A stretch of DNA of 35,713 nt from a virus. The stretch lies in the IMG/VR virus record IMGVR_UViG_3300020190_000187, positions 1-35,713 of that record. The stretch is one strand, 5' to 3'. The notes beneath the pieces were generated by a model. The model searched no databases, was not told where the DNA came from, and worked only from the letters and a program-made list of their open reading frames with translations. Below, in pieces: positions 13,583 through 31,883 of the stretch (position 1 is its first letter; the number at the start of each line of letters is the position of its first letter). The position numbers were made by a program, and so were the translations under genes.

Positions 13583-13626
13583 TGCCTCACTCCTTTGATT
13601 GACGAGACAACGGATGAATAAAGGAA

Positions 13627-15840: not shown

Positions 15841-15877
15841 TCCCTTACTCCTGATTGTTGTGGTCTAGCCTGATTGT

Positions 15878-15892
15878 TTAATAAATTATTAA
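15878..15892. promoter_or_regulatory. AT-rich palindrome in divergent gap
   Basis: TTAATAAATTATTAA is a near-perfect palindrome in the 88-bp gap between the divergent hydrophobic-protein gene and the tagged ParB-like gene. It may be a protein-binding site or part of a promoter; TTGTTT at 15874 and TAGATT at 15897 form a weak sigma70-like pair with 17-nt spacing around it. Confidence 0.35.
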
Positions 15893-15928
15893 TGGATAGA
15901 TTTGAACGACCAAGAAGGAGAGCCTAAA

Positions 15929-16807
15929 ATGATGAGAACCGCAAGTGATGTCTTAAGAAGTCTCGAAGCCCGTATCGCTCGCCTTGAAAGAAGAGCAGCA
16001 GAAGTGGTACTCACGCCAGAGGTCATCGAGAACGAGTACGAAAACGCAAAGAAGTTGAGCCAAGTAGACCCACAGATTGCTGCCGCTCTCATTCACGCAG
16101 GTGACAGAAGCGGGGACAAGATTAAGTCTCAGAATCGCACTATCGCTGCCGCTGCCCTTAAACCTTCACAAACCACCATGCTACCTGGAAACTCTTTGTG
16201 CATGATTGTTTGGATGATCAACAACAATAAGATTGACCCAAATCTTGGTGCTATCATCTCTAACGACAATTTCATCATGGACGGACATCACCGTTGGGCA
16301 GCAATGATTCTTCTTTTCGGTAAGGCTGCAAAGGTTGGAGGCATTCAAGTTGACCTACCTGGAAGTCAACTAGTTAGAGTTCTGAATGTTGTCACAAAAG
16401 GACTTTATTCGGGAAGAAATGGAAATGCAGGGTCGGGTGATATTGGAAACTTCAATCCTGCATATGTTGCAAAGATGTGCAGAGAGGCAGTTGAAAATGG
16501 ACTCCCCGCAGGCATTGGTGGTAAGTTTGGGTGTAAGGCTGAAGATGTCAAGTCTGCCTTCATAAAGCAGTTTGGTGATGTTGAAGTTGCTATCCGCACT
16601 TTATCCGAAAACGCCAAGTACATTACAACAACAGTCCCATCTTGGGCTCCTGATCGTAAAGATATGCCTGTCCTTGACGCAGACAAGGGTGAGGTGGACT
16701 TAGCCGCAGGTATGCTCTCCCGTGGTGAGGTAGAGGTGTTCCCTCCCTTTCCTGAGGAGCAAACCGTGAAAATTGGCAGCCGTAGGAATTTCCGTAGAAG
16801 CTACTGA
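15929..16807 (+). CDS. Tagged protein with ParB/sulfiredoxin-like domain
   Basis: About 292 aa from ATG 15929, which has AAGGAG with 9-nt spacing; a TTG at 15902 in frame is less likely. Residues 2-20 are RTASDVLRSLEARIARLE-like, the same N-terminal tag as in the genes at 19632 and 31883. The core holds IISNDNFIMDGHHRWAAM (near residues 110-125), followed by QLVRVLNVVTKG. The DGHHRW pattern is characteristic of ParB-nuclease/sulfiredoxin-fold domains, where the His-Arg pair sits at the nucleotide-binding site. The C-terminus ends IGSRRNFRRSY. The tag plus an enzyme-like domain suggests a protein delivered to a specific place such as the virion; this is inference. Its end overlaps the convergent gene by 7 nt. 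Confidence 0.88.
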   Translation: MMRTASDVLRSLEARIARLERRAAEVVLTPEVIENEYENAKKLSQVDPQIAAALIHAGDRSGDKIKSQNRTIAAAALKPSQTTMLPGNSLCMIVWMINNNKIDPNLGAIISNDNFIMDGHHRWAAMILLFGKAAKVGGIQVDLPGSQLVRVLNVVTKGLYSGRNGNAGSGDIGNFNPAYVAKMCREAVENGLPAGIGGKFGCKAEDVKSAFIKQFGDVEVAIRTLSENAKYITTTVPSWAPDRKDMPVLDADKGEVDLAAGMLSRGEVEVFPPFPEEQTVKIGSRRNFRRSY

Positions 16808-17274
16808 AAACGCTTGGTGTACTTATCCGCCACGCAGGACGCACACCACGCATTAGGTTTTGTTTCTACTCGGTCAAATCCATACCCCTTTACAATGCTC
16901 ACTAAACCGCTCGACCACCTGTAGGTGTACCCCCTCGGATGTGAGTTCACATCTAAATGGATAGTTATGGGGCAGGATGGGTAAAGCCTCATGAGGGATT
17001 GTCCCACCGAGATAGAAGCCTCCATCTCGGCATATACCCTAGAGTACAAATCCATAAAAGGTCGTAACATTGGTAGCTTCTTGTGAAAACACCTGCCGTG
17101 ATATCTCTTATCGGGGGACAAAAAACATACAGCTACGACAATAAGCGTCCCATTAGCAAATGGTTGACTATCAGCACCAACCACCACATCTAACTTGGAA
17201 GTGTCGCGTAGTCCGTTCCCGATCTCAGTTAAGAAATCTTCTTCGGAATATGTCTCACTCCCTCTTATCCACAT
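16801..17274 (-). CDS. YkuK/DUF458-like RNase H-fold protein
   Basis: About 157 aa from ATG 17274 (MWIRGSE); an in-frame TTG lies at 17280. Conserved segments are LDVVVGADSQPFANGTLIVVAV (acidic D of strand 1), CFLSPDKRYHGRCFHKK, a helix with YAEMEAS, TIHLDVNSHPRG (second acidic position), and the C-terminal VETKPNAWCASCVADKYTK. This order matches the DUF458/YkuK group, which has a predicted RNase H-like fold with unknown substrate. A GAGAG binding site precedes the start. The gene runs convergent to the tagged ParB-like gene, with overlapping ends, and follows a small hypothetical gene on the same strand. Confidence 0.85.
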   Translation of the reverse strand: MWIRGSETYSEEDFLTEIGNGLRDTSKLDVVVGADSQPFANGTLIVVAVCFLSPDKRYHGRCFHKKLPMLRPFMDLYSRVYAEMEASISVGQSLMRLYPSCPITIHLDVNSHPRGYTYRWSSGLVSIVKGYGFDRVETKPNAWCASCVADKYTKRFQ

Positions 17275-17316
17275 AATCAATGCACTCTCAGGTTAATAAA
17301 TCACCGAGCTTTATAC

Positions 17317-17742
17317 CTATCTCGTGCGTTTAAATAGATCACTCATGGCAACCACCTGCCCAAGTCCTCCTACCACTTCATCCCTCAAGGAGGTCGAGGG
17401 AGTCACCCTCAAAACGGATACATCCTGCGTCCTCTTATTCTTTTCAACCAAGTCGGTAGGCATCACGCCGCTCTCGATGGCGGAAGCGAGCTTCTCTCGA
17501 TTCACGGAAATCACCACTTCCCCAATCAAAGAAGGATCAATACCACGCTCCTGCATATCCTTCAAAAGGGTTGCCTCGTCATATGTAGAACGAATCTGAT
17601 TAAACATCGCTACTCGCCCACTCGGCAAGACAATCAAGTCATCCACTTCAAGAAGTGTCCGCAACCCTGCTACCTCTTCCTCAAGATTGTCCTGAAGTAC
17701 CTTTATCCGTAACAGACGCTCTGAAATCTGTGTCTTATCCAT
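17317..17742 (-). CDS. Small hypothetical protein with coiled-coil N-terminus
   Basis: 141 aa; ATG 17742 with GAGGTG upstream and a GAGGG/CCCTC inverted repeat (17761-17776) just before it. Residues 1-35 form a heptad-like helix (ISERLLRIKVLQDNLEEEVAGLRTLLEV). The rest is mixed alpha/beta, including LPSGRVAMFNQIRSTYDEATLLKDMQERGIDPSLIGEVVISVNREKL, read as separate short elements. No motif identifies a function. It is the first gene of a two-gene minus-strand unit with the YkuK-like gene. Confidence 0.8.
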   Translation of the reverse strand: MDKTQISERLLRIKVLQDNLEEEVAGLRTLLEVDDLIVLPSGRVAMFNQIRSTYDEATLLKDMQERGIDPSLIGEVVISVNREKLASAIESGVMPTDLVEKNKRTQDVSVLRVTPSTSLRDEVVGGLGQVVAMSDLFKRTR

Positions 17743-17782
17743 TTTTACACCTCAATCACCGAGGGGGGATTCCCTCTTCAGG

Positions 17783-17824
17783 TAACAACTTATACAATAG
17801 TTGTTATATCACAAATGCTATAAT
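17783..17824 (+). promoter_or_regulatory. Extended -10 promoter with upstream inverted repeat (operator-like)
   Basis: TGCTATAAT at 17816-17824 is an exact extended -10 element. There is no good -35 at standard spacing. Just upstream, TAACAACT (17783-17790) and AGTTGTTA (17799-17806) are a perfect 8-bp inverted repeat with an 8-nt spacer, placed where a repressor or activator would contact the polymerase. It probably drives the plus-strand block starting with the methyltransferase. Confidence 0.55.
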
Positions 17825-17963
17825 GCACACCAACCGCCTCCCTATGCCACTTGGTCTTATTCCGAAGAAGAAGGGTGTCAGGGACTAAGCGGTGTAGGAA
17901 GCCTTTGACGATATGGGTTTTCACCCTTTCCCCATGTAACAGGTCACAGGGCTGTTGGTGTGC
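17825..17963 (+). ncRNA. Candidate structured RNA or 5' leader closed by a 10-bp inverted repeat
   Basis: GCACACCAAC (17825-17834) and GTTGGTGTGC (17954-17963) are perfect complements enclosing about 119 nt. Inside, AAGGGTG (17871-17877) can pair with CACCCTT (17922-17928), and GGGTTTTCACCC forms a local hairpin, so alternative folds exist. Transcription from the adjacent TATAAT would start within the left arm, so the outer helix might be truncated to about 6 bp in RNA. No known RNA family (tmRNA, RNase P, 6S) is recognised. No protein-coding frame with a binding site covers the region. Confidence 0.35.
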
Positions 17964-18016
17964 CTATTCGTTTTGTATATGTGACGGACAGAGACATAAC
18001 AAGGGGAATGACTTTG

Positions 18017-19213
18017 ATGTTCGAGTACGAAAAGAAACCTCAGCGAAGGCTTGAGGAATACTCTCTCACCAAGATGAATGAAATTTGCATACCCGCACAC
18101 ATATGGACAGAGCTAACGGATAACTATACACAAGAAGAATTGACCGACCACTTATCCAATATCATCAGTACACTTCCTTTTCCCTACGCTAAATACACTC
18201 CCCAAGATGTGAAAAGGGATTGGCTAGATATTAAACATGATGTTCTAAATCCCATAGAGAGTGAGTGGGGACTACCTAGAGTCTCTGTTAAAAGCACCAC
18301 TTATCAAGGGAGACACCTTTACTTCGCCCCCAATAATAAGGGACTTAAAGTATCCAATCAGTTTGTTGAACCGACTCGTTGTGAAGCTGGACATATCCAA
18401 TACCCTAGCCCCATAAGACAATGGACTAGGGAAGGCATGAGCAGTAAAAGGTCTTTTCTTCGTCCCCTGTGGACTTTAATGAAGCCAACCCAAGGTGTGG
18501 ATAGTAGAGTCTTGCTCTCTTGCATCGCTTTGTCAGGCTATGTGGCGAGTCAGTTCAAGCCCGCACTTGCCAAAGGCTTATATGACTTTTTTGGGGCTAA
18601 GAGGGTCTTAGATTTCTCCGCAGGGTGGGGGGATAGATTGGTTGGATTTTTAGCTAGCGGAGCGGAGAGTTATGTGGGAATAGACCCGAACACCAAACTC
18701 CATGAACCATATCAACGGATAGTTGACTACTGCGAAACGGATAAATCAACCCGATTTATCCGTTCTCCTGCTGAAGATGCCGATCTCTCAGGTCTAAAGG
18801 TAGACTTTGTATTTACAAGCCCTCCGTACTTCGACACGGAACGATATTCAGAAGAGCCGACACAAAGTTGGAAAAGATACAAAAGACTAGACGATTGGTT
18901 AAATATATTTCTTTTCCCTGTTCTTAGGAAGAGTTGGGATTGCCTAGAAGATGGAGGCAGGATCGCTATAAACATATCCGACAAGGTTAAGGGAGATGTA
19001 AAGATTTGTCAGCCCATGCTCGATTACATGGAGAGCCTAGGTGCAACCTATGAAGGCGTAATTGGATACCGAATGAGTAAAAGACCCGGTAGCAACTTCT
19101 CCACATTAGATGAACTATCCAATATGGAGATATTTTGTGAGCCAATCTTTATTTGGAGTAAGGGAGTAGCTCCTGAACCTAAATGGATGCCCGATAACTT
19201 TTTCGGCGTTTAA
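18017..19213 (+). CDS. SPPY-motif DNA methyltransferase
   Basis: About 398 aa from ATG 18017, with AAGGGGA 10 nt upstream; ATG 18008 and GTG 17960 are alternative in-frame starts with poorer spacing. The SAM-binding motif is VLDFSAGWGDRLVGF near residue 196, and the catalytic motif is FTSPPYFDTERYS near residue 268, followed by GGRIAINISDK. The (S)PPY motif belongs to amino-methyltransferases that modify adenine N6 or cytosine N4. The N-terminal 190 residues could hold target recognition. No restriction endonuclease gene is beside it, so it looks like a solitary phage methylase, used for self-protection or regulation. The recognition site cannot be read from the sequence. Confidence 0.88.
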   Translation: MFEYEKKPQRRLEEYSLTKMNEICIPAHIWTELTDNYTQEELTDHLSNIISTLPFPYAKYTPQDVKRDWLDIKHDVLNPIESEWGLPRVSVKSTTYQGRHLYFAPNNKGLKVSNQFVEPTRCEAGHIQYPSPIRQWTREGMSSKRSFLRPLWTLMKPTQGVDSRVLLSCIALSGYVASQFKPALAKGLYDFFGAKRVLDFSAGWGDRLVGFLASGAESYVGIDPNTKLHEPYQRIVDYCETDKSTRFIRSPAEDADLSGLKVDFVFTSPPYFDTERYSEEPTQSWKRYKRLDDWLNIFLFPVLRKSWDCLEDGGRIAINISDKVKGDVKICQPMLDYMESLGATYEGVIGYRMSKRPGSNFSTLDELSNMEIFCEPIFIWSKGVAPEPKWMPDNFFGV

Positions 19214-19239
19214 AGTATCCCAAGTGCTGTAGTTTTTTT

Positions 19240-19273
19240 ATTAGATGGGTGTAAGAGATACTCCCCATCTAAT
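19240..19273 (+). promoter_or_regulatory. Hairpin abutting the ribosome binding site
   Basis: ATTAGATGGG (19240-19249) pairs with CCCATCTAAT (19264-19273), 10 bp with a 14-nt loop. The stem ends directly at GGAG (19274-19277) of the next gene. A run of seven T lies upstream of the stem rather than after it, so it is not a classical terminator for the methyltransferase gene. Confidence 0.6.
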
Positions 19274-19284
19274 GGAGAACCTAA

Positions 19285-19557
19285 ATGAAGTCAGGACTTT
19301 TGCTTAACAAGAGGAACGCTCACCTCGACCGCTACCTCGACCACAAGGGAACGATTGAGATCACCATCAGCAAGATGGAGTTTAAAAACCTACAGACCCA
19401 CTTCACCCGCTACTTCCGTCTCCCGCTCAACTCTCACAGGTATGCCATTATGGGGGAGACCCTCGTTTTCACGATGAATCTCCCTAGTTACGCGGGAGAG
19501 AATGTGGTAGGGTTTTTGGATAGCCTCTCCATCTCTTTTGATGTTGTTGAGGCTTGA
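19285..19557 (+). CDS. Small hypothetical protein
   Basis: 90 aa; ATG 19285 with the leader GGAGAACCTAA, a spacing and wording shared with the genes at 15929, 19632 and 20466. The sequence is basic at the start (LLLNKRNAHLDRYLDHKG), then forms alternating strands and a helix (TIEITISKMEFKNLQTHFTRYFRL) and ends with FLDSLSISFDVVEA. No motif is recognised. It is flanked by hairpin-type leaders on both sides and lies between the methyltransferase and a tagged protein. Confidence 0.75.
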   Translation: MKSGLLLNKRNAHLDRYLDHKGTIEITISKMEFKNLQTHFTRYFRLPLNSHRYAIMGETLVFTMNLPSYAGENVVGFLDSLSISFDVVEA

Positions 19558-19572
19558 TATTTCATTTATCAC

Positions 19573-19625
19573 GGCTCCATAGGTTGGATAATCCCTAACC
19601 CAAACCCATCCGGTCATATGGAGCC
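19573..19625 (+). promoter_or_regulatory. Hairpin containing the ribosome binding site
   Basis: GGCTCCATA (19573-19581) and TATGGAGCC (19617-19625) are a perfect 9-bp inverted repeat. The GGAG at 19620-19623 that serves the gene at 19632 is fully inside the 3' arm. The 35-nt loop contains a second potential stem (GGTT/AACC). If the hairpin forms, translation of the downstream tagged protein would be blocked until it is opened. Confidence 0.6.
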
Positions 19626-19631
19626 ACCTAA

Positions 19632-20252
19632 ATGATCAGAAGAACTGCAAGTGAAGTTTTACACGACCTTGAGGTGAGAATCGCCCGCCTTGAGGATTCT
19701 AGCTCAAGCCGCACAGCCTCTGTGCTAGACATTCTGAGAAGCCTCCCAAGGGCAAAAGAGATGCAAGAGGAGTTCAGGGACACCCTCTATCCTAATTTTC
19801 GTAACGGACTTGCCAAAGTGATTGAGAAAAAGTCTGTAAACCCCATCAGAATCCCCGAAGTATCTGGGGAAGATAGACCCACAGTTAGCATAGTGGTAGA
19901 GGGGACTAGATTCTCATGGCAAGATGTTTCTGAAACTGACCTGGCTGCGGGAAAGCTCTTAGTTCCATACACTATAGGTGTTAGGATGTTTTTCAGAGCA
20001 CCAAAACCGGTTAGTGAGATCGTAAAAGTAAAAAGGGGTTTAACGGGTATCAAACAGTTTTGGGGATATACCGTCACACCTGACGACATTAAAGAAAGAA
20101 CAGAGGTTATTACTGCTGTGCAGTCTTTCTGCAAGAAATTTGGGGTGACCTACTCAAATATAAGTTTCCCTGCTGCGGATAAGAAGAGCGGTGTTTACCC
20201 CTCGATGTACGGAACCCTGACGGTCATGTTCGACCTAAGTCACTACCTGTGA
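19632..20252 (+). CDS. Tagged hypothetical protein (RTAS...IARLE N-terminus)
   Basis: 206 aa; ATG 19632 with GGAG 8 nt upstream. Residues 3-21 (RRTASEVLHDLEVRIARLE) are the shared tag. A second partial copy, RTASVLDILRSL, follows after a Ser-rich spacer (residues about 27-38). The remainder is a beta-rich domain (TVSIVVEGTRFSWQDVSE; LVPYTIGVRMFFRAP; FWGYTVTPDDIKERTEV) ending in MYGTLTVMFDLSHYL. No family is recognised. The tag followed by a spacer and an unrelated domain parallels the genes at 15929 and 31883. Confidence 0.85.
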   Translation: MIRRTASEVLHDLEVRIARLEDSSSSRTASVLDILRSLPRAKEMQEEFRDTLYPNFRNGLAKVIEKKSVNPIRIPEVSGEDRPTVSIVVEGTRFSWQDVSETDLAAGKLLVPYTIGVRMFFRAPKPVSEIVKVKRGLTGIKQFWGYTVTPDDIKERTEVITAVQSFCKKFGVTYSNISFPAADKKSGVYPSMYGTLTVMFDLSHYL

Positions 20253-20465
20253 GATAAATGTCGGTTGTTCTACAGGGGTTGAGTGTGGGTGGCGGTCAGA
20301 CTAGGTGACGACCGCACGACACAAGGGGAGATGACCTTGAGAGGGCATATGGGGTTCTTGCTTTTTATCCGTAGTATTAATTAATAAAACGAGCCAAGAC
20401 GAGTTACTGACTCAAGGATTAATCCTTTTATAGCCCCCCGTTGATATAACCAACGGAGAGCCTAA
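20253..20465 (+). promoter_or_regulatory. 213-bp gap with several inverted repeats; probable structured leader
   Basis: There is no plausible gene beyond a 17-codon frame. It contains GCGGTC/GACCGC (20292-20297 and 20310-20315, extended by GTG/CAC around a bulge). It also contains the palindrome AAGGATTAATCCTT (20414-20427) followed by TTA, which could be a weak terminator, and CCGTTG/CAACGG (20438-20443, 20451-20456). The last stem overlaps the GGAG site (20455-20458) of the next gene. An AT-rich stretch TATTAATTAATAAAA (20375-20389) could be a promoter -10 region, but no convincing -35 was found. Confidence 0.45.
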
Positions 20466-22031
20466 ATGGATAACAAGTTTGGTAGTAAGAATGTCCCTGT
20501 GGATGAGAAGCTGTGGGCTGAACTTCAAGCTCTAGCTAAAGGGGAACGGAACAAGCCTGTTGTCCGTGGTGGGGAGTCTGTCAATCCTGTTAACGATGGA
20601 GCAGGGTTCCGCACCTTTCCTTCCGCTTACGCGAATGGTTGGGCTTTGGCTCAGTATAAGCGTCTAGGCGGCAAGTGGAAAAAAGAAGGTTCTGAGTTCA
20701 AGATGCCTCGTAAATGGGATTTATCCCATTGTGAGGATAAACCCTGCGAGGATATGGGGTTTTCTGAAAAGGCTTCTTGTCGCCCCTATAAGAACTGTTA
20801 TGGGAAAACATCTGCCGAAAGAGTGGCGGAACGCTATGGAGCGAAGCGTGACGACCCTAAACTCAAGAACACGGGTAAGGGGGGTTTAGGTACTTGGTTC
20901 GCAGGACATGGCGGAGGAGACCCTGAAGACAGAGCTACTTGGGGGGATTGGGTCGCGATTACGCCTGTAAAGCACACGATCAAGAAAGAGGAAGGTGAGG
21001 ATAAGACTTATGAACCCGGAGATATTGTTGGCCCATGTGCCGTCTCTAGTGAGAAAGAGTGGGCTTCTGTCACAGGAAACGGAAGTAAGCCCCTCAAGTG
21101 TATGCCCCGAGAGAAGGCTTGGGGGATGCCCAAAGAAGACAGAGCTGCCCTCGCTCGCAAAAAGAAGACGGAAGAAGCGAAACATAAAGGAAAAAAGCCT
21201 GTTAACACTCCGACTTTTAGTGAGGATGCTGAGAAGGTAAAGAAAGGCTCGGATAGAGTATCCGATTTCCATCGGGAGGTGATACCTCCCGACTCTCTGT
21301 CTAGTTTATCGAATGGGTCGGTAACAAATAAGGATACTAATCCTGATGGGAGTGGGTCACATAGTGCATTACCGAATGGAGACTCCGCTAGAAACATCGG
21401 TCGTCCATCGCCTGACTCACCTAATCTCAAATATCGGAATTTGGATAAATCAGAGGCGAATGGGAGAACCCCTGCCAACAAATTGGATATGGGTTATGTG
21501 AATGATAGCGGCAGCGGTTCAGCTAGGGTTATCCCTTATGACAGCGGCTTCGCCAATAACTCCTCTTCAATCAGAAACGCAGGGTTAAAAGCGTTAGCGA
21601 GTAAGATAGCCGCTCGCTATATCCAATCTGCGGCACAACCTGCACAAGACCTAGGTGGTGTGCAGACTTGGGTAAACAAGACACGCCAAGATCAAATAGA
21701 GAATGACACATCTGCCCCTGAGAAGGGTCGAGGAGATTCGGAAGACGGCAAACCTCAAAGGGATAGAGTTTTGCCGTTACCTGATGGACACCCTAAAGGG
21801 AGAGATGAACAAAGGGCAGGTCCTCCTGTGATGAACACGCCTTCGGATAGTTCAGGTGCGTCTACATCTTATGGGAAACAGCCAAATCCAAACGCGATAC
21901 CGAATCAACCTGATGGGAAACCCCTACACCAACGCCCGAGGTCTAGTGGATTACCTGGAGATCAGTACGGACATCCGTACATAAACCAACAGAACACCAC
22001 AGGTATGAAGAGGCGTACCGATGATATCTAA
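20466..22031 (+). CDS. DUF5872-like protein with long disordered C-terminus
   Basis: 521 aa; ATG 20466 with leader GGAGAGCCTAA. Residues 1-250 resemble a family seen in large viruses and phages: FRTFPSAYANGWALAQYKRLGGKW, then GLGTWFAGHGGG, WGDWVAITPVK, GPCAVSSEKEW, KPLKCMPREKAWGMPKEDRAALARKKK. It has paired Cys residues (CEDKPCEDMGF; CRPYKNCYG). Residues 250-370 are Ser/Asn/Gly-rich and probably unstructured. Around residue 375 is LKALASKIAARYIQSA, a tag-like helix. The C-terminal 130 residues are polar, Pro/Gly-rich and end in MKRRTDDI. The stop overlaps the start of the basic/Dps fusion gene, so the two products are made together. Function unknown, probably virion- or DNA-associated. Confidence 0.85.
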   Translation: MDNKFGSKNVPVDEKLWAELQALAKGERNKPVVRGGESVNPVNDGAGFRTFPSAYANGWALAQYKRLGGKWKKEGSEFKMPRKWDLSHCEDKPCEDMGFSEKASCRPYKNCYGKTSAERVAERYGAKRDDPKLKNTGKGGLGTWFAGHGGGDPEDRATWGDWVAITPVKHTIKKEEGEDKTYEPGDIVGPCAVSSEKEWASVTGNGSKPLKCMPREKAWGMPKEDRAALARKKKTEEAKHKGKKPVNTPTFSEDAEKVKKGSDRVSDFHREVIPPDSLSSLSNGSVTNKDTNPDGSGSHSALPNGDSARNIGRPSPDSPNLKYRNLDKSEANGRTPANKLDMGYVNDSGSGSARVIPYDSGFANNSSSIRNAGLKALASKIAARYIQSAAQPAQDLGGVQTWVNKTRQDQIENDTSAPEKGRGDSEDGKPQRDRVLPLPDGHPKGRDEQRAGPPVMNTPSDSSGASTSYGKQPNPNAIPNQPDGKPLHQRPRSSGLPGDQYGHPYINQQNTTGMKRRTDDI

Positions 22032-23067
22032 TGGATTTTGGGATACGGATAGTTATGGGAACCTGATTAAGGTAGCCATAATCAGCGTATTGCCTCCTAG
22101 CAACAGGCAAAGAAAACAAAAGGGACAAGTTAAGAGGGACTATCTTAAGCGTAAGCGTAAGAACAGAAAGAACAAGACAAAGATTAAGCTGCGTAGAAAG
22201 CGTTATTACAGGCTGAACAAGAGACGGATACTTCGTTATCAGAAGCAGTATCGGGATACTCCGCACTTGTTCAAAAGATATGAAGGGGGAGGGGTTTCAA
22301 CAAGAGGACAAAAGAACGAAAGGGATAAAAAAGCTATGAACATGGAGTCTCAATATAGGGAGGCTATCCGTAATGTGATGGCGAGTGAGATGGAACTAGA
22401 GGGGGGATTAGCAAGAGCCCCTCGTCATCAAATGAAGCGTATGCTTCAGAAAACTAGAACTCTCCGTAAGCGTCCTGATAGTCAAAGACGCAGACAGATG
22501 AGAAAGACTTATCGTAAAAGGGTAAAGTCGGATGCGAGCTTCAGGAGATATCGTAAAGACTATGCTAAGAAGTATTACAAGAAAAACAAGTCAAAAATCC
22601 AACAACGCAGGAAGAGAGCTAGTGAGATGAGCAACAAGTTATCCATAATGCAGGCATTACTTGCGGTTCTGAGAGCGGCACATTGGTCGCATTGGACTTC
22701 CCATTGGCAGGTAAAGGGTAGCACCTTTTATGGGGATCATTTATTGATGGAGAAGCTGTATGGGGGGCTTGTAGATGAGATAGATACGCTAGCAGAGAAG
22801 ATTATTGGGGAGTTTGGATCAGAAAGTTTAGATGCCGTGGATCAGGCACAGATGATGACATCTAATCTGATCACACAATCAAGGGGCGAGAAAGACCCAT
22901 TAAAGCGAGCATTACAAATAGAAGAGAATCTGCAAAAGACCTTAAAAGTATTTTACGAAATGTTAAAGCAACAGGATCAGATGAGTTTGGGTTTAGATGA
23001 TTATGTGATGAGTCTAGCTAATGCCCATGAGACGAACTTGTATTTACTCAGACAGAGACATCGCTAA
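22021..23067 (+). CDS. Protamine-like basic domain fused to a Dps/ferritin-like domain
   Basis: 348 aa; ATG 22021 with AGAGG upstream, overlapping the previous gene by 11 nt. Residues about 27-200 are extraordinarily rich in Arg, Lys and Tyr (KRKRKNRKNK; RRKRYYRLNKRR; YKKNKSKIQQRRKRA), separated by a short polar linker. Residues about 205-348 form a four-helix Dps domain. H228 and H240, E244, D255 and E259 occupy the Dps ferroxidase ligand positions (HW, GDHLLME, DEIDTLAE). Dps proteins form 12-mers that oxidise and store iron and protect DNA. The basic arm would bind DNA strongly. The predicted product could compact or protect phage DNA against iron and peroxide damage. The domain fusion is seen directly; the role is inference. 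Confidence 0.88.
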   Translation: MISNGFWDTDSYGNLIKVAIISVLPPSNRQRKQKGQVKRDYLKRKRKNRKNKTKIKLRRKRYYRLNKRRILRYQKQYRDTPHLFKRYEGGGVSTRGQKNERDKKAMNMESQYREAIRNVMASEMELEGGLARAPRHQMKRMLQKTRTLRKRPDSQRRRQMRKTYRKRVKSDASFRRYRKDYAKKYYKKNKSKIQQRRKRASEMSNKLSIMQALLAVLRAAHWSHWTSHWQVKGSTFYGDHLLMEKLYGGLVDEIDTLAEKIIGEFGSESLDAVDQAQMMTSNLITQSRGEKDPLKRALQIEENLQKTLKVFYEMLKQQDQMSLGLDDYVMSLANAHETNLYLLRQRHR

Positions 23068-24185: not shown

Positions 24186-24197
24186 TCGGGTTTAATA

Positions 24198-24254
24198 ATC
24201 TATCTATCTACTAAGGCTTAAACAAAGAGCATAAGCCTAGATGAGGAGATAGAT
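24198..24254 (+). promoter_or_regulatory. Nested stems able to sequester the binding site and start codon
   Basis: AGGCTTA (24214-24220) pairs with TAAGCCT (24232-24238), a perfect 7-bp stem upstream of GAGGAG (24243-24248). ATCTATCT, present in two registers at 24198-24209, is complementary to AGATAGAT (24247-24254). The latter spans the end of the binding site and the first two bases of the ATG at 24253. The two helices can nest, giving an RNA that hides the translation start. Confidence 0.5.
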
Positions 24255-24690: not shown

Positions 24691-24695
24691 AGAAG

Positions 24696-27600
24696 ATGGC
24701 TATTAGAGGCGGCTACGCTCCCCCAGGTGTATACACCGAAACCGTGTTTGAAACTCAGACACAACCGAATATAATTGTCACGGGTAAGGTTCCCTTACTC
24801 ATAGGGACAGGTAGAGAGACTATCATCTCCAAGGGCAATACCCTAGTGAGAGGTAGCTCGGCAACTATCGACCAACGCATTGTGGAAGAAGATGCCACAG
24901 GTCGTGCAATTGTTGCCGTCAACCCTGATGACTCTTTTGAGCTAGGTGAGTTTGACGGAGAAATCACTTCTTTTGTCGTTCGTAACTTACCCATCGTCAC
25001 GGGAGACGGTTCTGCCACAGTTGCCACTACCCCCACATCAGTTTCCGTACTGATCAATGGTGTCGCCACGGTGGTGTTATCCGTAGAGGGAACCACGGGT
25101 GTAGTCACCATCGCTGAAGCTCCAAGTGCTGAGGATGATGTGAGAGTCACCTACTTCTTTGATCGTAAAGATACACTCATCACGGAAGAAGATTTAAGTA
25201 CGCAAATCACATCTACCCAAACTGAACTATTGGGTTCCGCAGGGTCTTTTGCATTTAATGCTTCCACTAACACCTTCGTAGTCACTTGTGATGGAGTGTC
25301 GAGCGTTCTTACACTTCCCCTTGCTGACGGAACAGACCGTCTTGGAAGTCTTGATCGCGTTGTTGGTGTCATCAATGCGGCATCTGTAGGTTCTCTCTCG
25401 GCTACCACATACACCGATAACAATGGATCAGTAAATCTCAAGCTACTAGCCGATGGTTTTATCCGTATTGGTGCAGGGTCGGCAAATGGTGGGATGGGTC
25501 TTTATCCTAATCAGGTGGGGTCGGAGCGTTCGAGTGTGTTTTACACGCAATTCACTCCAATTGTGGATGGCTCTAATAGCGGCATCACCACCACAGATGT
25601 GACAGACATCATCGTCAAGGTGGATGGTGAAATCATCACACCCACATCTCTAGACGGACAAACAGGGGCGATTACCTTATCCAATCCCCCTAGCGTAGGT
25701 TCTACTATCCTAGTCACCTATTACTACAACACCTTCAGAGATCAGTTTGATTTTATCCCTGGTCGCGATATTGTGTCCGTAGACAGGGTTTCTTTGGTGG
25801 CGAGCGGTGGTGGACAAGCCGCTCAGTTTATCGAAGGTGTAGATTGGGTACTGCATGATGACAAAATCGTGTGGGGTACTGCCACCCTCGTATCTGAGGG
25901 TGCTATCCAAAACGGCACCACACCTTTCGGCACTATCCAAGTTCTATCCTCCCTCAAGGATGAACGAGCCTTTATGGTGGAGTGTTCACCCGTAGTGACC
26001 ACTTCTGTTGTACCTCCAAGAGTGTTGGCTAACACTTTCCAATTACCCCATCAGCCCACAGATGGTACAGGTACAGGTACACCAACATCGCGTACCGATC
26101 TGATTCAGGTTCGTTCAGGGGTATCCATTTCGGATGCCTTAGACAAAGACCCCTTAGATGTGGTGAGAGTGAACCCTGCCAACTCGCAGATCACTCTCTC
26201 CTCAAGCATCCCCGCTAGTCATAAAGTCTATGCAACCTTCTACTACAATAATATCCAAGACCAAATCGCCTCCGTGGGCGGTGGATATGTGATTAGAGTA
26301 GAGAGCGTCGGCACATCAGGCATTGGCACCTACTCCATGACCAAAGAAGGTGTATCCGTTTACGGTGTCACCTTTACAGGAAAAGGCTCCGATCTCGATG
26401 CCGTCACCTTGAACTTCCCTTCGGGGTCAGAAGTCTTATCCGATGCTAGGATAGAAAACGGAAAGCCCGTTTCAGAATTGGTCAGCGTAGAGCTAGCTGA
26501 TTATGATGAAACTTCGGCTATCTTTAACTTCACAGGGGCATCCCCCTACTTCCCCGTGCTCGGTTCTTCGGATACCCTTAACCTCGAAATAAACGGAACC
26601 TCACTCAGCGTGGAATTGGGGGACTCTACCTCCACAGGTATCCGTCATCCCCTGCCTCTGCATTTGGGCGAACCTTTACCTTACACGGAAGAATCCAATA
26701 AAGGCGATTTGGGGACAGGGATTGCCTCTAGCTTGAACTTGGTTGTAGACGGTGTATCCCTTACAGCCACACTAAGCGGAGATAACCTAGATATTGATGA
26801 TTGGGTCACGGCTATCAATACGGAAGCCGCTTCTGCTTCACCCATTTATGTGGGTATGGGTCGTATATCCACTCTAGATATTGCATTAGGTACATATCAG
26901 AACTTGAAATTCCATTACACGGGTAGCGTAAATGGAGCATCAGGGGACATTACTGCCGTTATCCCTGTTGCAGGCTACGCTAATGCTTCCGCCTTGGCTA
27001 CCGCCATAGACGCGGCTATTTCTAATGCCATAGCCACTTTTGTGTTTGGACAGCCCGATTTCACAGGCTTGTCCTTATCCGTAACAGCGGACGCGAGCGG
27101 TCGTCTTGTATTCACACTAGATGGACTTCCTAATGGCGTTGGCACTACGGACGAGTTTGGCTTCATTGAGTTTATCGCAGCTGACGACACTACCTTCTGT
27201 TCAATCGCGGGTCTTGATGCTGATACTGCAACAGGTGGAACCCAAACCAAATGGGGCGTTCTTCCCATAGCAGCTAAGTCATCTAAAACCACTTCTTCAG
27301 GTGAAAAGGTAGACCGTCTTATCCTTAAGGGCAGAATGCTTCGTGGTAACTACTACTACCCCCAAACAAACTTGGGGATAGCCATCAATGGCGGTACGGA
27401 TACTGAAAAGGCAGGTATGCCCTCTTCACTATCCATTTCCAATCCATTGTCGGTTGTGTCTTTGGCAAGTGTGTTGTTATCCGTAGGTTGGAGTGTACAG
27501 GTAGGATCATTACCTGCGGCTGTGTTTTATGACGGCTCCGATGTCAACAATCCCGTTAATGATCAGCTTGTGTTATCCATTAATGGGGTAAGTGTAGTAG

Positions 27601-29513
27601 TCAACTTTACAAGTTCGGGTGCAGGGGATACACTTGAGCTACAAGACATCAAGTCTGAGATAGAGGCAGCTATCACGGCAGCTTCCGCTGATGCTGAAGT
27701 CGTCATCGAAGGTGCGGGTCTCCGTGTGATCTCGACCTATGAAAACACTAATGCAAGTATTGTTGTTGGTGCTGGGTCGGCAAATGACACACTAGGCGTA
27801 AGTGAGGGAGACATCGGCTCTACAGGTGTAGTCACAGCAAGTGGCGTTTGTTCTGCTCTCATGTCTCACACTCGGGCAGGTGGAGACATTGCCGTAGTGT
27901 TGTTCTCCACAGAACCCAAGTTGGTATCCCTTGACACTCGCTTCACCTCTGAGGCTATCGCCTATCCATTTACGGATAGGGTAGGCAAGACTTCGGTGGT
28001 GATTGAGAGCCTTACATTTGGTGTATCTAGCTACATCACGATAGTGGGAGGAAACGCAGTATCCACAAAGGGGAATGGATTTAAGATTGTTGCGAATGAA
28101 GGTGCTGTGGGAGAAGATGCCTATCAGGGATTTGTCGTCACATCAAACAATCCAAAAGGCTCAGGTTCGGCTAATACATCAAGTCTTAACGATGGAGTTG
28201 GACAAGATGGTGTTGTTGGACAGACCTATGTGGACAGCGTAACAGGATTGACCTTTACCTTGCTCCCAAGAGACGGCGGTCTCATGTACCCCACAGGGGC
28301 TGATGCCACACTATCCTTCTCGGTGGGTAAGACAATCACCACTAACGCCAATATCCCCGTAAACATGATTTACGGAGTTAGTCTGATTGTATCCAATACC
28401 GTAGGGGCAGAGATTGGCGATACTGCGGTTGTGGAGACTTTCTTCAAGGGAGGCAAAGAACCTAATATCGGTCAGGTTTACTACCTCGATTTCACCCGTC
28501 TACGCACTCAGTTTGGCACTTCCGTATTCACAAACATGGCGGATGTGCTCGCTACTTATGGAGAAATCAGCCCACAAAACACACTCAGCCTCGGGGCGTA
28601 TTTGGCGTTCTCCAACGGAGCAAGAGCGATTGCCCTTCATCAGGTGCCATTGGAGGCAGGTAAAAACACCTTAACGGAACAACAAGTTTTAACCGCGTTG
28701 GATGCTATCGAGGGCGATATCTCTGATGGTTTGTCCCCGAATGTAATTGTCCCCTTGTTCCCCGCCACTTCCTCCATCCTCGCCTCTATTTCTAACCATG
28801 TGGATATACAGAGCAGTATCCGTTATCGTTCGGAACGGAGAGCGATTCTTGGATTTAGAGCTGGCACTCAGCCCCGTGAAGCACAGGCTCTTGCAACAGC
28901 TACTGCCAACACCCGCGTCTGCCTCGTTTATCCTGATATCGGTCGTGTAGCCTTCACCGATGCAAGTGGGGTGTCTCAAAACTTCCTTGTTGATGGTTCA
29001 TACTTTGCCGTAGCTCTCGCTTGTGCTACCACATCAAATGCCGTTGATCCCGCAACACCTTGGACTAATAGAGCTATCCGTGGCTTCACCGCTTTGGGGC
29101 GTTCTTTAGATGCGGTTGATGCAAATCAAACCGCTAATGCAGGTGTCACCGTACTGAAGTCTGAACGAGGTGTCATATCCGTAAGACACGGCTTGACCAC
29201 GAACATGACTTCTATCCTCACGAAAACCCCCACCGTTATCCAAATTGCGGATGAAGTTCATCTAAGAGCTAGGGATACCCTCAATCAGTACATCGGGGTT
29301 AAGTTCTTACCCAATGTGGTGCCTCAAATAGAGGGTAAGGTTAATGCCATGTTCAAACAACTTGTCAGCGAACAACTTATCTCAACTTACACAGGTCTTA
29401 GCGTTACACAAGACCCTAATGACCCAACCGCTCTTTTGGTCGAAGCCTTTTATAAGCCCGTATTCCCCTTGCTCTATATCCAATTCACCTTTAATGTCAG
29501 AAGCAGCCTCTAA
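24696..29513 (+). CDS. Tail sheath protein, greatly enlarged (1605 aa)
   Basis: ATG 24696 follows AGGAG in the end of the previous gene. Residues 1-60 (GYAPPGVYTETV; PLLIGTG) and about 1255-1605 (YYLDFTRLRTQFG; RAIALHQVP; ISVRHGLTTN; TLNQYIGVKFLPNVVPQIEG; FYKPVFPLLYIQFTFNVRSSL) match the conserved core of contractile tail sheath proteins. Hundreds of residues lie between them, where phage sheaths usually have one or two surface domains; common sheaths are about 450-700 aa. In the insertion, three units with the pattern V-nG...GxItLs.pP...VtYyYN..rDq occur near residues 95-160, 290-350 and 470-520. GAGSAN recurs near residues 259 and 1030. The reading frame is continuous with no frameshift. 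The added domains probably project from the tail surface and may bind the host. Confidence 0.95.
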   Translation: MAIRGGYAPPGVYTETVFETQTQPNIIVTGKVPLLIGTGRETIISKGNTLVRGSSATIDQRIVEEDATGRAIVAVNPDDSFELGEFDGEITSFVVRNLPIVTGDGSATVATTPTSVSVLINGVATVVLSVEGTTGVVTIAEAPSAEDDVRVTYFFDRKDTLITEEDLSTQITSTQTELLGSAGSFAFNASTNTFVVTCDGVSSVLTLPLADGTDRLGSLDRVVGVINAASVGSLSATTYTDNNGSVNLKLLADGFIRIGAGSANGGMGLYPNQVGSERSSVFYTQFTPIVDGSNSGITTTDVTDIIVKVDGEIITPTSLDGQTGAITLSNPPSVGSTILVTYYYNTFRDQFDFIPGRDIVSVDRVSLVASGGGQAAQFIEGVDWVLHDDKIVWGTATLVSEGAIQNGTTPFGTIQVLSSLKDERAFMVECSPVVTTSVVPPRVLANTFQLPHQPTDGTGTGTPTSRTDLIQVRSGVSISDALDKDPLDVVRVNPANSQITLSSSIPASHKVYATFYYNNIQDQIASVGGGYVIRVESVGTSGIGTYSMTKEGVSVYGVTFTGKGSDLDAVTLNFPSGSEVLSDARIENGKPVSELVSVELADYDETSAIFNFTGASPYFPVLGSSDTLNLEINGTSLSVELGDSTSTGIRHPLPLHLGEPLPYTEESNKGDLGTGIASSLNLVVDGVSLTATLSGDNLDIDDWVTAINTEAASASPIYVGMGRISTLDIALGTYQNLKFHYTGSVNGASGDITAVIPVAGYANASALATAIDAAISNAIATFVFGQPDFTGLSLSVTADASGRLVFTLDGLPNGVGTTDEFGFIEFIAADDTTFCSIAGLDADTATGGTQTKWGVLPIAAKSSKTTSSGEKVDRLILKGRMLRGNYYYPQTNLGIAINGGTDTEKAGMPSSLSISNPLSVVSLASVLLSVGWSVQVGSLPAAVFYDGSDVNNPVNDQLVLSINGVSVVVNFTSSGAGDTLELQDIKSEIEAAITAASADAEVVIEGAGLRVISTYENTNASIVVGAGSANDTLGVSEGDIGSTGVVTASGVCSALMSHTRAGGDIAVVLFSTEPKLVSLDTRFTSEAIAYPFTDRVGKTSVVIESLTFGVSSYITIVGGNAVSTKGNGFKIVANEGAVGEDAYQGFVVTSNNPKGSGSANTSSLNDGVGQDGVVGQTYVDSVTGLTFTLLPRDGGLMYPTGADATLSFSVGKTITTNANIPVNMIYGVSLIVSNTVGAEIGDTAVVETFFKGGKEPNIGQVYYLDFTRLRTQFGTSVFTNMADVLATYGEISPQNTLSLGAYLAFSNGARAIALHQVPLEAGKNTLTEQQVLTALDAIEGDISDGLSPNVIVPLFPATSSILASISNHVDIQSSIRYRSERRAILGFRAGTQPREAQALATATANTRVCLVYPDIGRVAFTDASGVSQNFLVDGSYFAVALACATTSNAVDPATPWTNRAIRGFTALGRSLDAVDANQTANAGVTVLKSERGVISVRHGLTTNMTSILTKTPTVIQIADEVHLRARDTLNQYIGVKFLPNVVPQIEGKVNAMFKQLVSEQLISTYTGLSVTQDPNDPTALLVEAFYKPVFPLLYIQFTFNVRSSL

Positions 29514-29735
29514 TTAGACACCTAGGGGAGAATCCCCCAATATGACGCGGAAGGCTTCCTCCTGTTTACTGCGGAGGTCTTCCGCTTCTCTTTTATTCAA
29601 ACCTATAAATTGGATAGCTCCCTTGTTTTGACACACCCTACAATCTATGGCTGAGACCACTTGGTATTGTAAGGGGTAATATAATCTACACTTATTACAT
29701 TTAAAGTATCCATATGGGGTGCTTGATGTTTGCAT
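29514..29735 (-). CDS. Small zinc-ribbon protein
   Basis: 73 aa from ATG 29735 (MQTSSTPYGYFKCNKC). An upstream ATG at 29831 would overlap the divergent plus-strand gene and has no good site, so the shorter form is chosen; AGGTG precedes it. Two Cys pairs (CNKC and CRVC, 16 residues apart) form a zinc ribbon, followed by a charged helix (NKREAEDLRSKQEEAFRVIL). Its stop directly abuts the sheath gene stop (TAATTA at 29511-29516). Possible roles are nucleic-acid binding or regulation; none can be assigned. Confidence 0.78.
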   Translation of the reverse strand: MQTSSTPYGYFKCNKCRLYYPLQYQVVSAIDCRVCQNKGAIQFIGLNKREAEDLRSKQEEAFRVILGDSPLGV

Positions 29736-29756
29736 ATTTTCACCTAAGGGGTAGTC

Positions 29757-30353
29757 ATGAGTAGGGATTGTAGAGTTCAATGGAGACTTGAAGAAGATGG
29801 CACTAACAAGTCTTGGAGATGTGTTGCCCATTTAACACCTACATCTTGGGTGTGTGAGGCGATACATAAATGCTATTACGCAAATTGTCCCGGCAGGAGC
29901 AATACAGGTAAACCCCTCACAAAAGAGGAAATGAATATCCATAAACTCCGCCGAGAACTCGAAGAAGATTTTATCCGTAAAGGCACACCCCCTCAACCAA
30001 CCCCCCCTAAACCAACCCCCCCTCAACCAACTACTCCAAAACCCAATCCCTCAGCACCCACAACTATCCATTACTGCTCCGTTGAGAAGTGTAAGAAACC
30101 GATCCCTCCAACAAGGAAGTCTGTGAAGTATTGCTCGGAAAACTGCCGAAAAAACGCTTTCCGTGGGAAGAAGAAAAAACAACCGCCCACTCCCCCCTCC
30201 CCACCCACGCCTATCCACATCCCACCAATACTTCAAACTTCAGTTTGTCAATGTGTCGGCTGCTCCAACACAGTAACCACTACAAAGTATTGTTCATCTT
30301 ATTGTCGTAAGAAGGCATTTAAACAACGGCTACGAGGCATTTTCCCCACTTAG
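29757..30353 (+). CDS. Multi-zinc-finger protein with Pro-rich linkers
   Basis: 198 aa; ATG 29757 with AAGGGG. Three Cys-rich modules are separated by proline-rich linkers. The first is an N-terminal one (SWRCVAHL; SWVCEAIHKCYYANC). A middle treble-clef-like one follows (YCSVEKCKKP, then KYCSENCRKNAFR). A C-terminal one closes the series (CQCVGCSNTV, then KYCSSYCRKKAFKQR). The last two share the YCSxxCRKxAF ending and look like duplicates. The linkers are PTPPKPTPP-type. Such modules bind zinc and often nucleic acid or proteins; a host-directed or transcription-related role is possible but unproven. It starts 21 nt from the divergent zinc-ribbon gene and overlaps the convergent gene's stop. 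Confidence 0.85.
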   Translation: MSRDCRVQWRLEEDGTNKSWRCVAHLTPTSWVCEAIHKCYYANCPGRSNTGKPLTKEEMNIHKLRRELEEDFIRKGTPPQPTPPKPTPPQPTTPKPNPSAPTTIHYCSVEKCKKPIPPTRKSVKYCSENCRKNAFRGKKKKQPPTPPSPPTPIHIPPILQTSVCQCVGCSNTVTTTKYCSSYCRKKAFKQRLRGIFPT

Positions 30354-31297
30354 GGTTTAAGGTGAACAAGCCCCAAACCCGTAAACGAACCCGTCTCAAA
30401 CTTAACACGATCTTTCAGCGTCATTAAGACCCTCTTGACATCTCGCTCTACCTGCTCATTCGTGAACTTATCCATTACGAATGAGACAACATCATCATCC
30501 AACTCAATGTCCTCAACACCCTGAATCTGAGCTAATGCTCTAATGACTTCTTTGGGGGATGTGGCACAAATAACGCGAGCCGCTACTTTCATGCTAGATG
30601 CACGCATATTGAAGGGGGACACGGTAGGAGTAAAGAAAAGAGACCCGCCTCTAACTTGCACTTCTAACCCAGGGATACGACTGACCCCCCTACGATTAAC
30701 TAAGTAGGTCTCCCACAGGTAATGTGCCTGATCATTAGCCGTGTATGTAATATACTCATGTTCCATTGCCCTAGGGGGAATGAACTCTACTTCGTTAAAT
30801 CTAATCTCAAGGTTTTTTGCCGATCTGATGATCCTGTAATCATAAAGCATTTGATCCGAAGAGTCGTTGATTGCTTCTTCTACCTCGTTCTCGGCTGTGA
30901 GGAAGAGTTCCTGTAGGTCTAGTGTGGCTGATCTTCTCATGGGGTTCTCCGATTCGTGGACTATGTGGGGTTCAGGTGTTGGATTGAACTTTGAAGCCTG
31001 ATCAACAAGCTCTCGGTCTTCGTGTGATAGTTGTTGCCTGTAAAACGCCTCTCCCATCGTTATAAGGGCATAGTTTGTTCGATCTAGCCCTCTTTCCAAT
31101 TTGGAAAGGTGCAAAGGGATAGCCGCAAAACTATCACCACAAAGGCGATACATCGCCTCTTTAACTTTGGGGTGATCTTCTAGTGCTGTGAGTATTTGGT
31201 TCAATGAAGAACGGACTAGATGAGCCTCCACTCTAGCACCGCTCACCCCCTCGGTGAGCAGAGACCAACTCGCTTGACTAGATGCCCGTTTATCCAT
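30350..31297 (-). CDS. Hypothetical protein
   Basis: 315 aa from ATG 31297 (MDKRASSQAS), preceded by AGGTG 6 nt upstream; an in-frame GTG at 31306 is possible. The sequence begins with a tag-like polar helix (DKRASSQASWSLLTEG). It has helical segments (AHLVRSSLNQILTALEDHPKVKEAMY) and SENPMRRSATLDLQELFLTAENEVEEAI, then a beta-rich part (YRIIRSAKNLEIRFNEVEFIPPRAM; GLEVQVRGGSLFFTP). It ends with MKVAARVICATSPKEVIRALAQIQGVEDIELDDD in short elements. No enzyme motif or known family is seen. A strong hairpin lies just upstream (31324-31368). Confidence 0.82.
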   Translation of the reverse strand: MDKRASSQASWSLLTEGVSGARVEAHLVRSSLNQILTALEDHPKVKEAMYRLCGDSFAAIPLHLSKLERGLDRTNYALITMGEAFYRQQLSHEDRELVDQASKFNPTPEPHIVHESENPMRRSATLDLQELFLTAENEVEEAINDSSDQMLYDYRIIRSAKNLEIRFNEVEFIPPRAMEHEYITYTANDQAHYLWETYLVNRRGVSRIPGLEVQVRGGSLFFTPTVSPFNMRASSMKVAARVICATSPKEVIRALAQIQGVEDIELDDDVVSFVMDKFTNEQVERDVKRVLMTLKDRVKFETGSFTGLGLVHLKP

Positions 31298-31323
31298 TTC
31301 GCTCACCTATACCTTGATCGTCA

Positions 31324-31368
31324 GCACAAAGGGAGATCGGAGTAAAACTATCCAATCTCCCTTTGTGC
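31324..31368 (-). promoter_or_regulatory. Long perfect hairpin upstream of a ribosome binding site
   Basis: GCACAAAGGGAGAT (31324-31337) and ATCTCCCTTTGTGC (31355-31368) form a 14-bp perfect stem, extendable inside by GGA/TCC after one mismatch. No T-run follows on either strand, so a simple intrinsic terminator is unlikely. On the minus strand it ends about 15 nt before the binding site of the gene starting at 31297. Confidence 0.65.
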
Positions 31369-31421
31369 CTTGCATAGATAATCTATAAAAGCTATGACTT
31401 AGCCTCCCCTAAACCCAAAAG

Positions 31422-31883
31422 TTACCAATCCCCCCCGTAGAGGGGGTTGGTATTAGGCATATATTCGGAGAATATGGGATTACCGCTCTTGTCAGTATGT
31501 AAGGAGATTTCGACATCTAGACGCTTACCCGTAAGAAGGTTAGTCAAAATGACATCCGCGAATACGGTGTACTTCAGATGTGAATACTGAGGCAGGGGTG
31601 ACTCCCCCGCATAATTGATATCAATACTTGAAGCCCTGATATTGATCACATCTCCTTGTGTCTCAAGGTCTAGTTCATCGCTAAAATGTGCTAGTAAGAA
31701 ATCAGCAAGGGCTTCGCTGACTTCTCTCCGAGAAATGTTCTGCCAACGGGCATACCGCTCAACCATAAAATCAGCTAGCTGAAAGACATTCATGGTCTTA
31801 GCTGCGATTTTACGACCGCCTTCGAGGCGAGCTACGCGAGCCTCAAGACTTCTTAAAACTTCACCGGCGGTTCTTCTTATCAT
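31422..31883 (-). CDS. Tagged hypothetical protein (RTAG...VARLE N-terminus)
   Basis: 153 aa; ATG 31883 with GAGGAG about 10 nt upstream. Residues 3-21 (RRTAGEVLRSLEARVARLE) are the shared tag, nearly identical to those at 15929 and 19632. After GGRKIAAKT comes a helical part (VFQLADFMVERYARWQNISRREVSEALADFLLAHF) and a beta-rich C-terminus (INIRASSIDINYAGE; LKYTVFADVILTNLLTGKRLDVEISLHTDKSGNP in pieces), ending PNTNPLYGGDW. No family is recognised. A 10-bp hairpin sits four bases upstream of its binding site. Confidence 0.85.
   Translation of the reverse strand: MIRRTAGEVLRSLEARVARLEGGRKIAAKTMNVFQLADFMVERYARWQNISRREVSEALADFLLAHFSDELDLETQGDVINIRASSIDINYAGESPLPQYSHLKYTVFADVILTNLLTGKRLDVEISLHTDKSGNPIFSEYMPNTNPLYGGDW

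Follow-up and report, generated by a model that had tools for sequence, protein, structure and literature searches.

A short heptad-patterned N-terminal tag on unrelated proteins of uncultured giant phages, a candidate docking element for prohead cargo

In the IMG/VR record IMGVR_UViG_3300020190_000187 (35,713 bases, analysed over its full length and called the window below), three unrelated proteins open with the same 18-residue element, RTAxxVLxxLExRxARLE. This element, referred to here as the tag, recurs on many proteins in related giant phages and follows a promoter that it has in common with virion genes; the tag family and the shared promoter are well supported by the sequence comparisons. 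By analogy with phage T4 we propose, with a probability of roughly 0.55, that it is a late-expressed coiled-coil docking tag that loads diverse cargo into the prohead.

The window derives from a contractile-tailed phage, as family scans recognised portal, terminase and sheath genes. Each of the three proteins agrees with the element at all 12 fixed positions, and the next best match in a six-frame scan of the window reaches 6 of 12. The tags, the proteins that carry them and two weaker relatives are located as follows:

15929..15988, plus strand: tag 1 (MMRTASDVLRSLEARIARLE); pattern 12/12; hidden Markov model (HMM) E 2.3e-14; protein start MM-RTASDVLRSLEARIARLE
15929..16807, plus strand: tagged protein 1; phrog_2859 match, E 2.2e-9
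19632..19694, plus strand: tag 2 (MIRRTASEVLHDLEVRIARLE); pattern 12/12; HMM E 8.4e-15; protein start MIR-RTASEVLHDLEVRIARLE
19632..20252, plus strand: tagged protein 2, orphan body
19710..19745, plus strand: doubtful second partial tag (RTASVLDILRSL) in protein 2; 7.1 bits, E 0.33
31821..31883, minus strand: tag 3 (MIRRTAGEVLRSLEARVARLE); pattern 12/12; HMM E 3.1e-14; protein start MIR-RTAGEVLRSLEARVARLE
31422..31883, minus strand: tagged protein 3, orphan body
13487..13513, minus strand: degraded tag-like RIARLEKEA, a fourth relative; 12.8 bits, E 0.006; within a 318-residue open reading frame (ORF) at 12626-13582

The three bodies have no family in common, in agreement with a preliminary description of this stretch, made from its letters, that had reported one start on three different proteins. 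The bodies of the proteins at 19632 and 31883 were matched only in one near-identical contig, in a search sensitive to close relatives alone. The second partial copy that had been noted in the protein at 19632 is a weak match and may be a recurrent linker, RTAS. At the DNA level, TTAAGAAGTCT occurs in the window only at 15953-15963 (plus) and 31846-31856 (minus).

A degenerate DNA pattern of the tag matched 46 stretches of IMG/VR, corresponding to 33 distinct proteins after removal of repeats, and in 32 of these an ATG lies one to three codons ahead of the tag. The tag HMM (E up to 1) gave matches in all 20 pattern-found records searched, the window included, with at most 17 per record (17 in the 290-kb contig G001, 12 in the 275-kb G002 and 12 in the 61-kb G011, a near-copy of the window). 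A second sampling went through the major capsid protein (MCP): it yielded 517 IMG/VR relatives, of which 80 were kept and 16 records chosen. Tag matches at E up to 0.1 were present in 12 of the 16, with 31 in the 375-kb G027. The genome-wide search for further tagged genes for which the preliminary description had asked thus finds many, up to 31 per relative.

Placement is mostly N-terminal. In 1121 called genes, a set that includes near-duplicate records, the tag pattern falls within the first 45 residues of 54 genes, with 3 matches elsewhere and a shuffled mean of 0.0. Among 134 distinct HMM hits, 120 start within the first 12 residues, 3 end within the last 12 (one of them may be a separate short ORF) and 11 lie elsewhere. 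Several of the latter have a Met directly upstream and are perhaps miscalled starts or fusions. The similar proteins G027:C1:78106 and G030:C1:35469 (about 575 residues) contain a complete tag with its own Met in mid-protein, which points to an internal start or to fusion of a tagged gene with the gene upstream of it.

Unsupervised clustering of gene starts returned the tag as the largest cluster in all six tag-rich genomes, with 31 members in G027, 29 in G029, 15 in G002, 14 in G001, 14 in G036 and 10 in G030; some of these members are spurious and some in G002 belong to another tag class. The next clusters had 2-8 members. The wording of the tag differs between genomes, so that one can speak of dialects: RTASEVLRSLEARIARLE in G001, RRSASEIIRNLEMRIARLE in G027, KVSAQQIRSLEMRIARLE in G029 and SQKLASLEARIAKLE in G036. 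In G036, three starts close to tagged genes (G036:C1:150172, 150617 and 151892) show a doubled mini-repeat, RLASLRxSRLASLR. No tag cluster was found de novo in three records that are short or poor in tags, namely G038 (whole) and the sampled parts of G026 (40 of 59 kb) and G039 (about 34 of 54 kb), or in the sampled portion of Tunturi_5 (159 of 309 kb). A tblastn search of INPHARED with a 24-residue tag consensus gave no match, and four named relatives had no tag of this class (class 1 below) at E up to 1. No description of the tag was seen in the open-access papers searched, a search that left subscription journals and preprint servers largely uncovered.

The preliminary description had favoured duplication over convergence, and comparison across genomes bears this out. 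On non-homologous bodies, tag identity is 0.753 within a genome and 0.691 between genomes (0 of 200 label shuffles as high). For such tags in ten genomes, identical residues use the same codon at a frequency of 0.41-0.64 versus 0.27-0.38 expected from codon usage, i.e. 1.5-2 times expectation; the tag therefore moves as DNA. Most of the bodies are unrelated, 44 homologous pairs being seen across 113 tags. In G001, the adjacent tagged genes G001:C1:149811 and 150466 have the same tag, leaders that agree across the 60 bases compared and bodies that are only 37% identical; this pair is a duplication with body divergence. Protein 1 of the window has homologues without a tag in three records that lack tag matches (the start of one is cut off), which indicates that the tag can be separated from the body. 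These untagged homologues (L383, L384 and L385) end in a different helix-like C-terminal extension (LRPLVKEAIKKMINK), perhaps the terminal tag of another phage group.

A 19-bp element near TTTTTATAGTTTATTTATA begins about 50-85 bases ahead of most tagged genes. With a model whose training set excluded the test genome and its near relatives, the element was detected before 25 of 27 tagged versus 65 of 433 other genes in G027, 11 of 14 versus 31 of 314 in G001, and 7 of 11 versus 26 of 264 in G002; base shuffles, run at the threshold of a separate scan, gave 2/460 (G027) and 0/328 (G001). Other carriers are the gene before the MCP, the leader of the head cluster, sheath-side genes and genes with a class-2 tag (see below). 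Of the 59 untagged carriers in G027, the 53 that lay within a single piece of sequence and were shorter than 2000 residues were scanned against PHROGs. The families named include baseplate wedge, baseplate hub/tail lysozyme and endolysin, and none for replication was seen in these 53. The comparison set, 53 of 66 operon leaders of G027 chosen for lacking the element, comprises DNA polymerase, helicases, clamp loader, ligase, UvsX and the large subunit of ribonucleotide reductase (RNR) among the 25 of 66 families listed. On this distribution the element would be a virion-gene promoter, probably acting late.

In the window, promoter-like elements (scored by a model whose training set included the near-copy G011) and one leader hairpin were assigned as follows; besides tags 1 and 2 and the genes at 534 and 24253, three genes have the promoter at a score of 11 or above:

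15876..15894, plus strand: promoter-like 19-mer ahead of tag 1, score 13.3
19552..19570, plus strand: promoter-like 19-mer ahead of tag 2, score 16.4
19573..19625, plus strand: leader hairpin of tag 2 with GGAG in its 3' arm, -21.3 kcal/mol, z -3.9
13617..13635, minus strand: promoter-like 19-mer of ORF 12626-13582, score 18.9
1181..1199, minus strand: promoter-like 19-mer before the head-cluster gene at 534, score 15.1
24190..24208, plus strand: promoter-like 19-mer before 24253 and the sheath gene, score 15.5

Of eight chosen leaders that were folded, five, that of tag 2 included, give strong hairpins (z below -2.9) whose stem contains the ribosome site; none was found in the leaders of window tags 1 and 3. 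Over a larger set, a stem covers the ribosome site in 33% of 63 tagged versus 17% of 1404 other genes. The leaders also have words in common: GGAGTAA precedes 11 of 14 tagged versus 7 of 314 other genes in G001, and ATGGAGA 18 of 27 versus 11 of 433 in G027, the sharing being weaker in G002 and G029.

Four residues (A3, L10, R13 and E18) are invariant in 113 HMM-selected tags, partly because the seed pattern required some of them. Hydrophobic residues recur at positions 3, 7, 10, 14 and 17, and [ST]2-A3-x-E5 fits what we take to be a helix capping box. With the heptad frame that we assign from the alignment columns, the tag is predicted to be a capped amphipathic helix with the core A3-L7-L10-I14-L17 and a trimer-type motif, R13-h-x-x-h-E18. 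This motif, Arg(g)-h(a)-x-x-h(d)-Glu(e), is associated mostly with parallel trimers and with some dimers (PMC3653964). In its strict form, R-hxxhE is present in 99 of 113 members of the de novo clusters (31/31 in G027, 14/14 in G001, 10/10 in G030, 25/29 in G029, 11/15 in G002 and 8/14 in G036) versus 22 of 1741 other genes. The HMM-selected tags have it in 111 of 113, a set partly selected for these residues, and the de novo figure is the less biased. The best PDB profile matches of the tag are GCN4 coiled-coil peptides, at a weak E of 0.006. T4-type cleavage was rejected as a general feature, [LI]xE[AGS] being present in 8 of 113 tags; a protease of the phage's own may cut differently. A-x-E stands at tag positions 3-5 in 102 of 113 and is absent from the G029 and G036 wordings; a cut there would take off only about 7 residues.

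Some close relatives use another tag. In INPHARED a second consensus, LRSKLIRLAHENPxLRPxLLPLLKEA (class 3), matched LR745208.1, a 485-kb uncultured phage whose MCP is 89.7% identical to that of G001 and whose portal is 72.4% identical to that of the window. This phage has 11 class-3 matches and no class-1 tag at E up to 1. Further records whose MCP is close are also rich in class 3 (G020, G022, G023, G024, G042 and G043, with 8-15 matches), and eleven class-3 records searched for class 1 gave one hit, in G023, over 8 positions with E 0.057. Conversely, no class-3 match was found in the class-1-rich G027, G028, G029, G030, G033 and G036. In the shorter records G031, G040 and G041 class-3 matches outnumber class-1 matches. 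The class-3 proteins considered include L093 and L162-L193 (from LR745208.1, G020, G022, G023 and G024); their tag also occurs at C-termini (L174, L189 and L093), and up to three copies are seen in one protein (G002:174527). A class-2 start motif, RVAxRYM, is found at 15 of 1121 starts versus 0.2 from shuffles, with 16 matches in the remainder of the proteins. Starts of the RVAxRYM/KVAxxYL kind occur in the window at 10585-11181 and 14929-15840 (both minus strand) and in G027 at 15198, 261617 and 262153. Several of these genes have the late-type promoter, and the motif is possibly another address tag.

Tagged genes also lie among the head genes. The order in G001 is portal, two tagged genes, two others, head maturation protease, an acidic scaffold-like protein, another gene, MCP and two tagged genes; in the first of these two the tag is found at a Met inside the called ORF. 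Two head-cluster genes of G001 (151036 and 151666) appear fused into one in G002 (188096). The scaffold-like protein, so labelled from position and composition without a family match, was detected in 28 of 30 records; it has a conserved coil (AEEIAMLKAANARLARQVRKLAED) in 18 and lacks it in 10. Class-1 matches (E up to 0.1) occur in 15 of the 18 coil-bearing versus one of the 10 coil-less records (the G023 hit), and class-3 matches in 9 of the 10 coil-less records. A Fisher test of coil versus tag was set aside, the rows sharing ancestry and the partial G023 hit having been scored as none. We regard the co-occurrence as a lead, not as proof.

As for the bodies, 67 tagged proteins gave one strong Pfam match (pentapeptide repeat; next best 4.5e-5), and scans with Pfam, PHROGs, NCBIfam and PADLOC revealed little function among the families listed; several PHROGs were matched strongly but are unnamed. 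Protein 1 has what is presumably a ParB-like GHHRW motif. No strong match to a replication family appears among the families listed for the 67 (25 of 32 for Pfam, 25 of 36 for PHROGs). In ten class-3 cargo proteins, selected by their length, the matches were to WGR (2e-10) and, under the cut-off, to RelA/SpoT.

We propose that the tag is a modular docking element, which a linker of variable sequence joins to many proteins, unrelated and mostly orphan. Promoter, leader and tag would be copied round the genome as one unit and acquire new bodies. Its products would be made together with those of the virion genes and be loaded into the prohead by coiled-coil pairing, possibly via the coil of the scaffold-like protein. 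Like the internal proteins of T4, they may then be carried along in the virion and act at an early stage in the next cell. Packaging into the prohead is the most economical reading, but one drawn from analogy, promoter and context. The T4-like capsid targeting raised in the preliminary description is partly supported: the promoter held in common with virion genes, the tagged genes beside portal and MCP and the scaffold-like coil speak for it; most tags, however, are without the T4-type cleavage site, and a few copies stand at the C-terminus or inside the protein.

Several observations weigh against the prohead proposal. In structure, only 8 of 14 cluster members of G036 retain R-hxxhE, and a single-chain AlphaFold2 model of protein 1 gives a helix for the tag (residues 5-24) but with a predicted local distance difference test (pLDDT) score near 40; the model has a mean pLDDT of 50, too poor for a fold search. 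Only 8 of 113 tags have the T4-type site in the first 45 residues, the 3 C-terminal and 11 otherwise placed copies do not conform to an N-terminal signal, and homotrimerisation would be equally useful to decoration or fibre proteins. Nearly all of the cargo is without assigned function. The promoter of G027 also precedes the RNR small subunit, phosphoesterases and homing endonucleases, the helicase-like gene 121884 of G001 has it too, and window tag 3 lacks it (score only 2.1). With respect to the coil, class-3 matches occur in 8 of the 18 coil-bearing records, class-1 hits are missing from the coil-bearing G026, G037 and G038, and G039 lacks both tag and coil. Class 3 is non-exclusive (3 matches in G001, 6 in G002). 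The association is inflated by near-copies (G033-G035 and G040-G041 share scaffolds; 12/15 after collapsing), and the coil HMM was built from coils of the same record set. On the MCP tree, where most forks are unresolved, the coil group could go back to a single origin, and the association may represent one ancestral event.

The best-placed rival, which we nevertheless consider unlikely, is a trimeric coiled-coil anchor by which many small proteins, as alternatives to one another, would be held on the virion exterior (capsid decoration, whiskers or tail). Tail fibres have shared N-terminal anchors, and the frequency of R-hxxhE in the de novo clusters, the promoter in common with virion genes and the mostly N-terminal placement would all fit. 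However, the few recognisable bodies look intracellular (ParB-like, pentapeptide repeat and, in class 3, WGR and the sub-cutoff RelA/SpoT), and a few tags are C-terminal or internal. Rather less probable is a self-associating helix that gathers late proteins at a cellular assembly site or condensate without entry into the virion: the tag would resemble the encapsulation peptides of bacterial microcompartments as described in PMC12339742 (a terminal amphipathic helix of about 18 residues, a poorly conserved linker, trimeric association), but the head-gene neighbours of some tagged genes and the virion-gene promoter of most fit particle assembly more simply. We think it improbable that the tag is merely part of a mobile expression cassette of promoter, leader hairpin and first codons, alike by common descent without targeting and helping new genes to be expressed. 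The leader words almost confined to tagged genes in G001 and G027 and the strong hairpins in five of eight leaders would agree with this, but the protein core pattern is kept while wording and leaders vary between genomes, and some tags are internal or C-terminal. Least probable is the alternative named in the preliminary description, import into a replication compartment such as a phage nucleus, for although the tag is N-terminal and modular and a helicase-like G001 gene has the same promoter, relatives of the phiKZ shell, PhuZ and RNA polymerase beta were not found by phmmer below E 0.08 among the genes searched (a test of low sensitivity, the phiKZ SbcD query reaching only E 0.02) and replication families are missing from the strong matches among the families listed for the 67 tagged proteins and from the 53 G027 promoter carriers.

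Two further observations concern the window. Its terminase (3166-6279, minus strand) has 1037 residues versus an uninterrupted 618 in G001; G002 has a similar long form of 1044 residues, and in the window an intein-like insert appears to split the Walker A region (GRRSGK/C...HN/TT, slashes marking its ends). The C-terminal part of the protein at 22021-23067 weakly matches DUF5856 (3.5e-6, under the cut-off), and its N-terminal half is very basic.

Loading into the prohead would be part of a wider picture, which we offer tentatively and at somewhat less than even odds: an address-label system in a widespread clade of uncultured giant phages, in which a late promoter-leader-tag cassette on about 10-30 proteins per genome is read by the head-scaffold coil, each phage has its own dialect, sister phages use a different tag, and the effectors that a virion brings into the next host form a set of its own that can evolve. 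The phage group concerned has MCP relatives in 517 IMG/VR stretches. If the proposal is correct, its orphan genes become a predicted set of virion cargo readable from sequence alone, with candidates for injected host-takeover or counter-defence proteins, and the short tag could be used to bring foreign cargo into phage heads of very large size. The principle of the T4 internal proteins would then extend to giant phages, and on a larger scale. Recognition between tag and partner can be tested with the help of the two alternative tags and of the dialects of single genomes.

The closest parallel is capsid targeting in T4. T4 internal proteins are described as a highly diverse set with only one conserved element in common (PMC3012670), and the capsid targeting sequence associates with the prohead core (PMC5694885). 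The T4 sequences are described as N-terminal. The system described here likewise places one short element on diverse proteins, as in the T4 internal proteins and Alt, with 120 of 134 copies within 12 residues of the start. It differs in that the tag is heptad-patterned, that most copies have no T4-type cleavage site, that tag-rich genomes have 10-31 cluster members and that some copies are C-terminal or internal; the likeness drawn here is one of features. The head propeptides of SPN3US and phiKZ are also N-terminal elements on head cargo. SPN3US gp53 and gp54 have identical N-termini, and several of these propeptides exceed 100 residues (PMC5694885). Their cuts follow AXE, whereas a cut at A-x-E in the tag would remove about 7 residues. 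The encapsulation peptides of bacterial microcompartments are described as terminal amphipathic helices of about 18 residues with a variable linker, diverse cargo and trimer formation. The tag may be comparable: it has the terminal place and a heptad pattern, and its helix is predicted at low confidence. Those peptides serve cellular organelles, whereas the presumed container here is a phage prohead. GCN4-type trimeric coils, finally, are linked to the tag by R-hxxhE and by the weak profile match, and a trimer is predicted from the motif; unlike these coils, the tag spans only two to three heptads and is common to many proteins.

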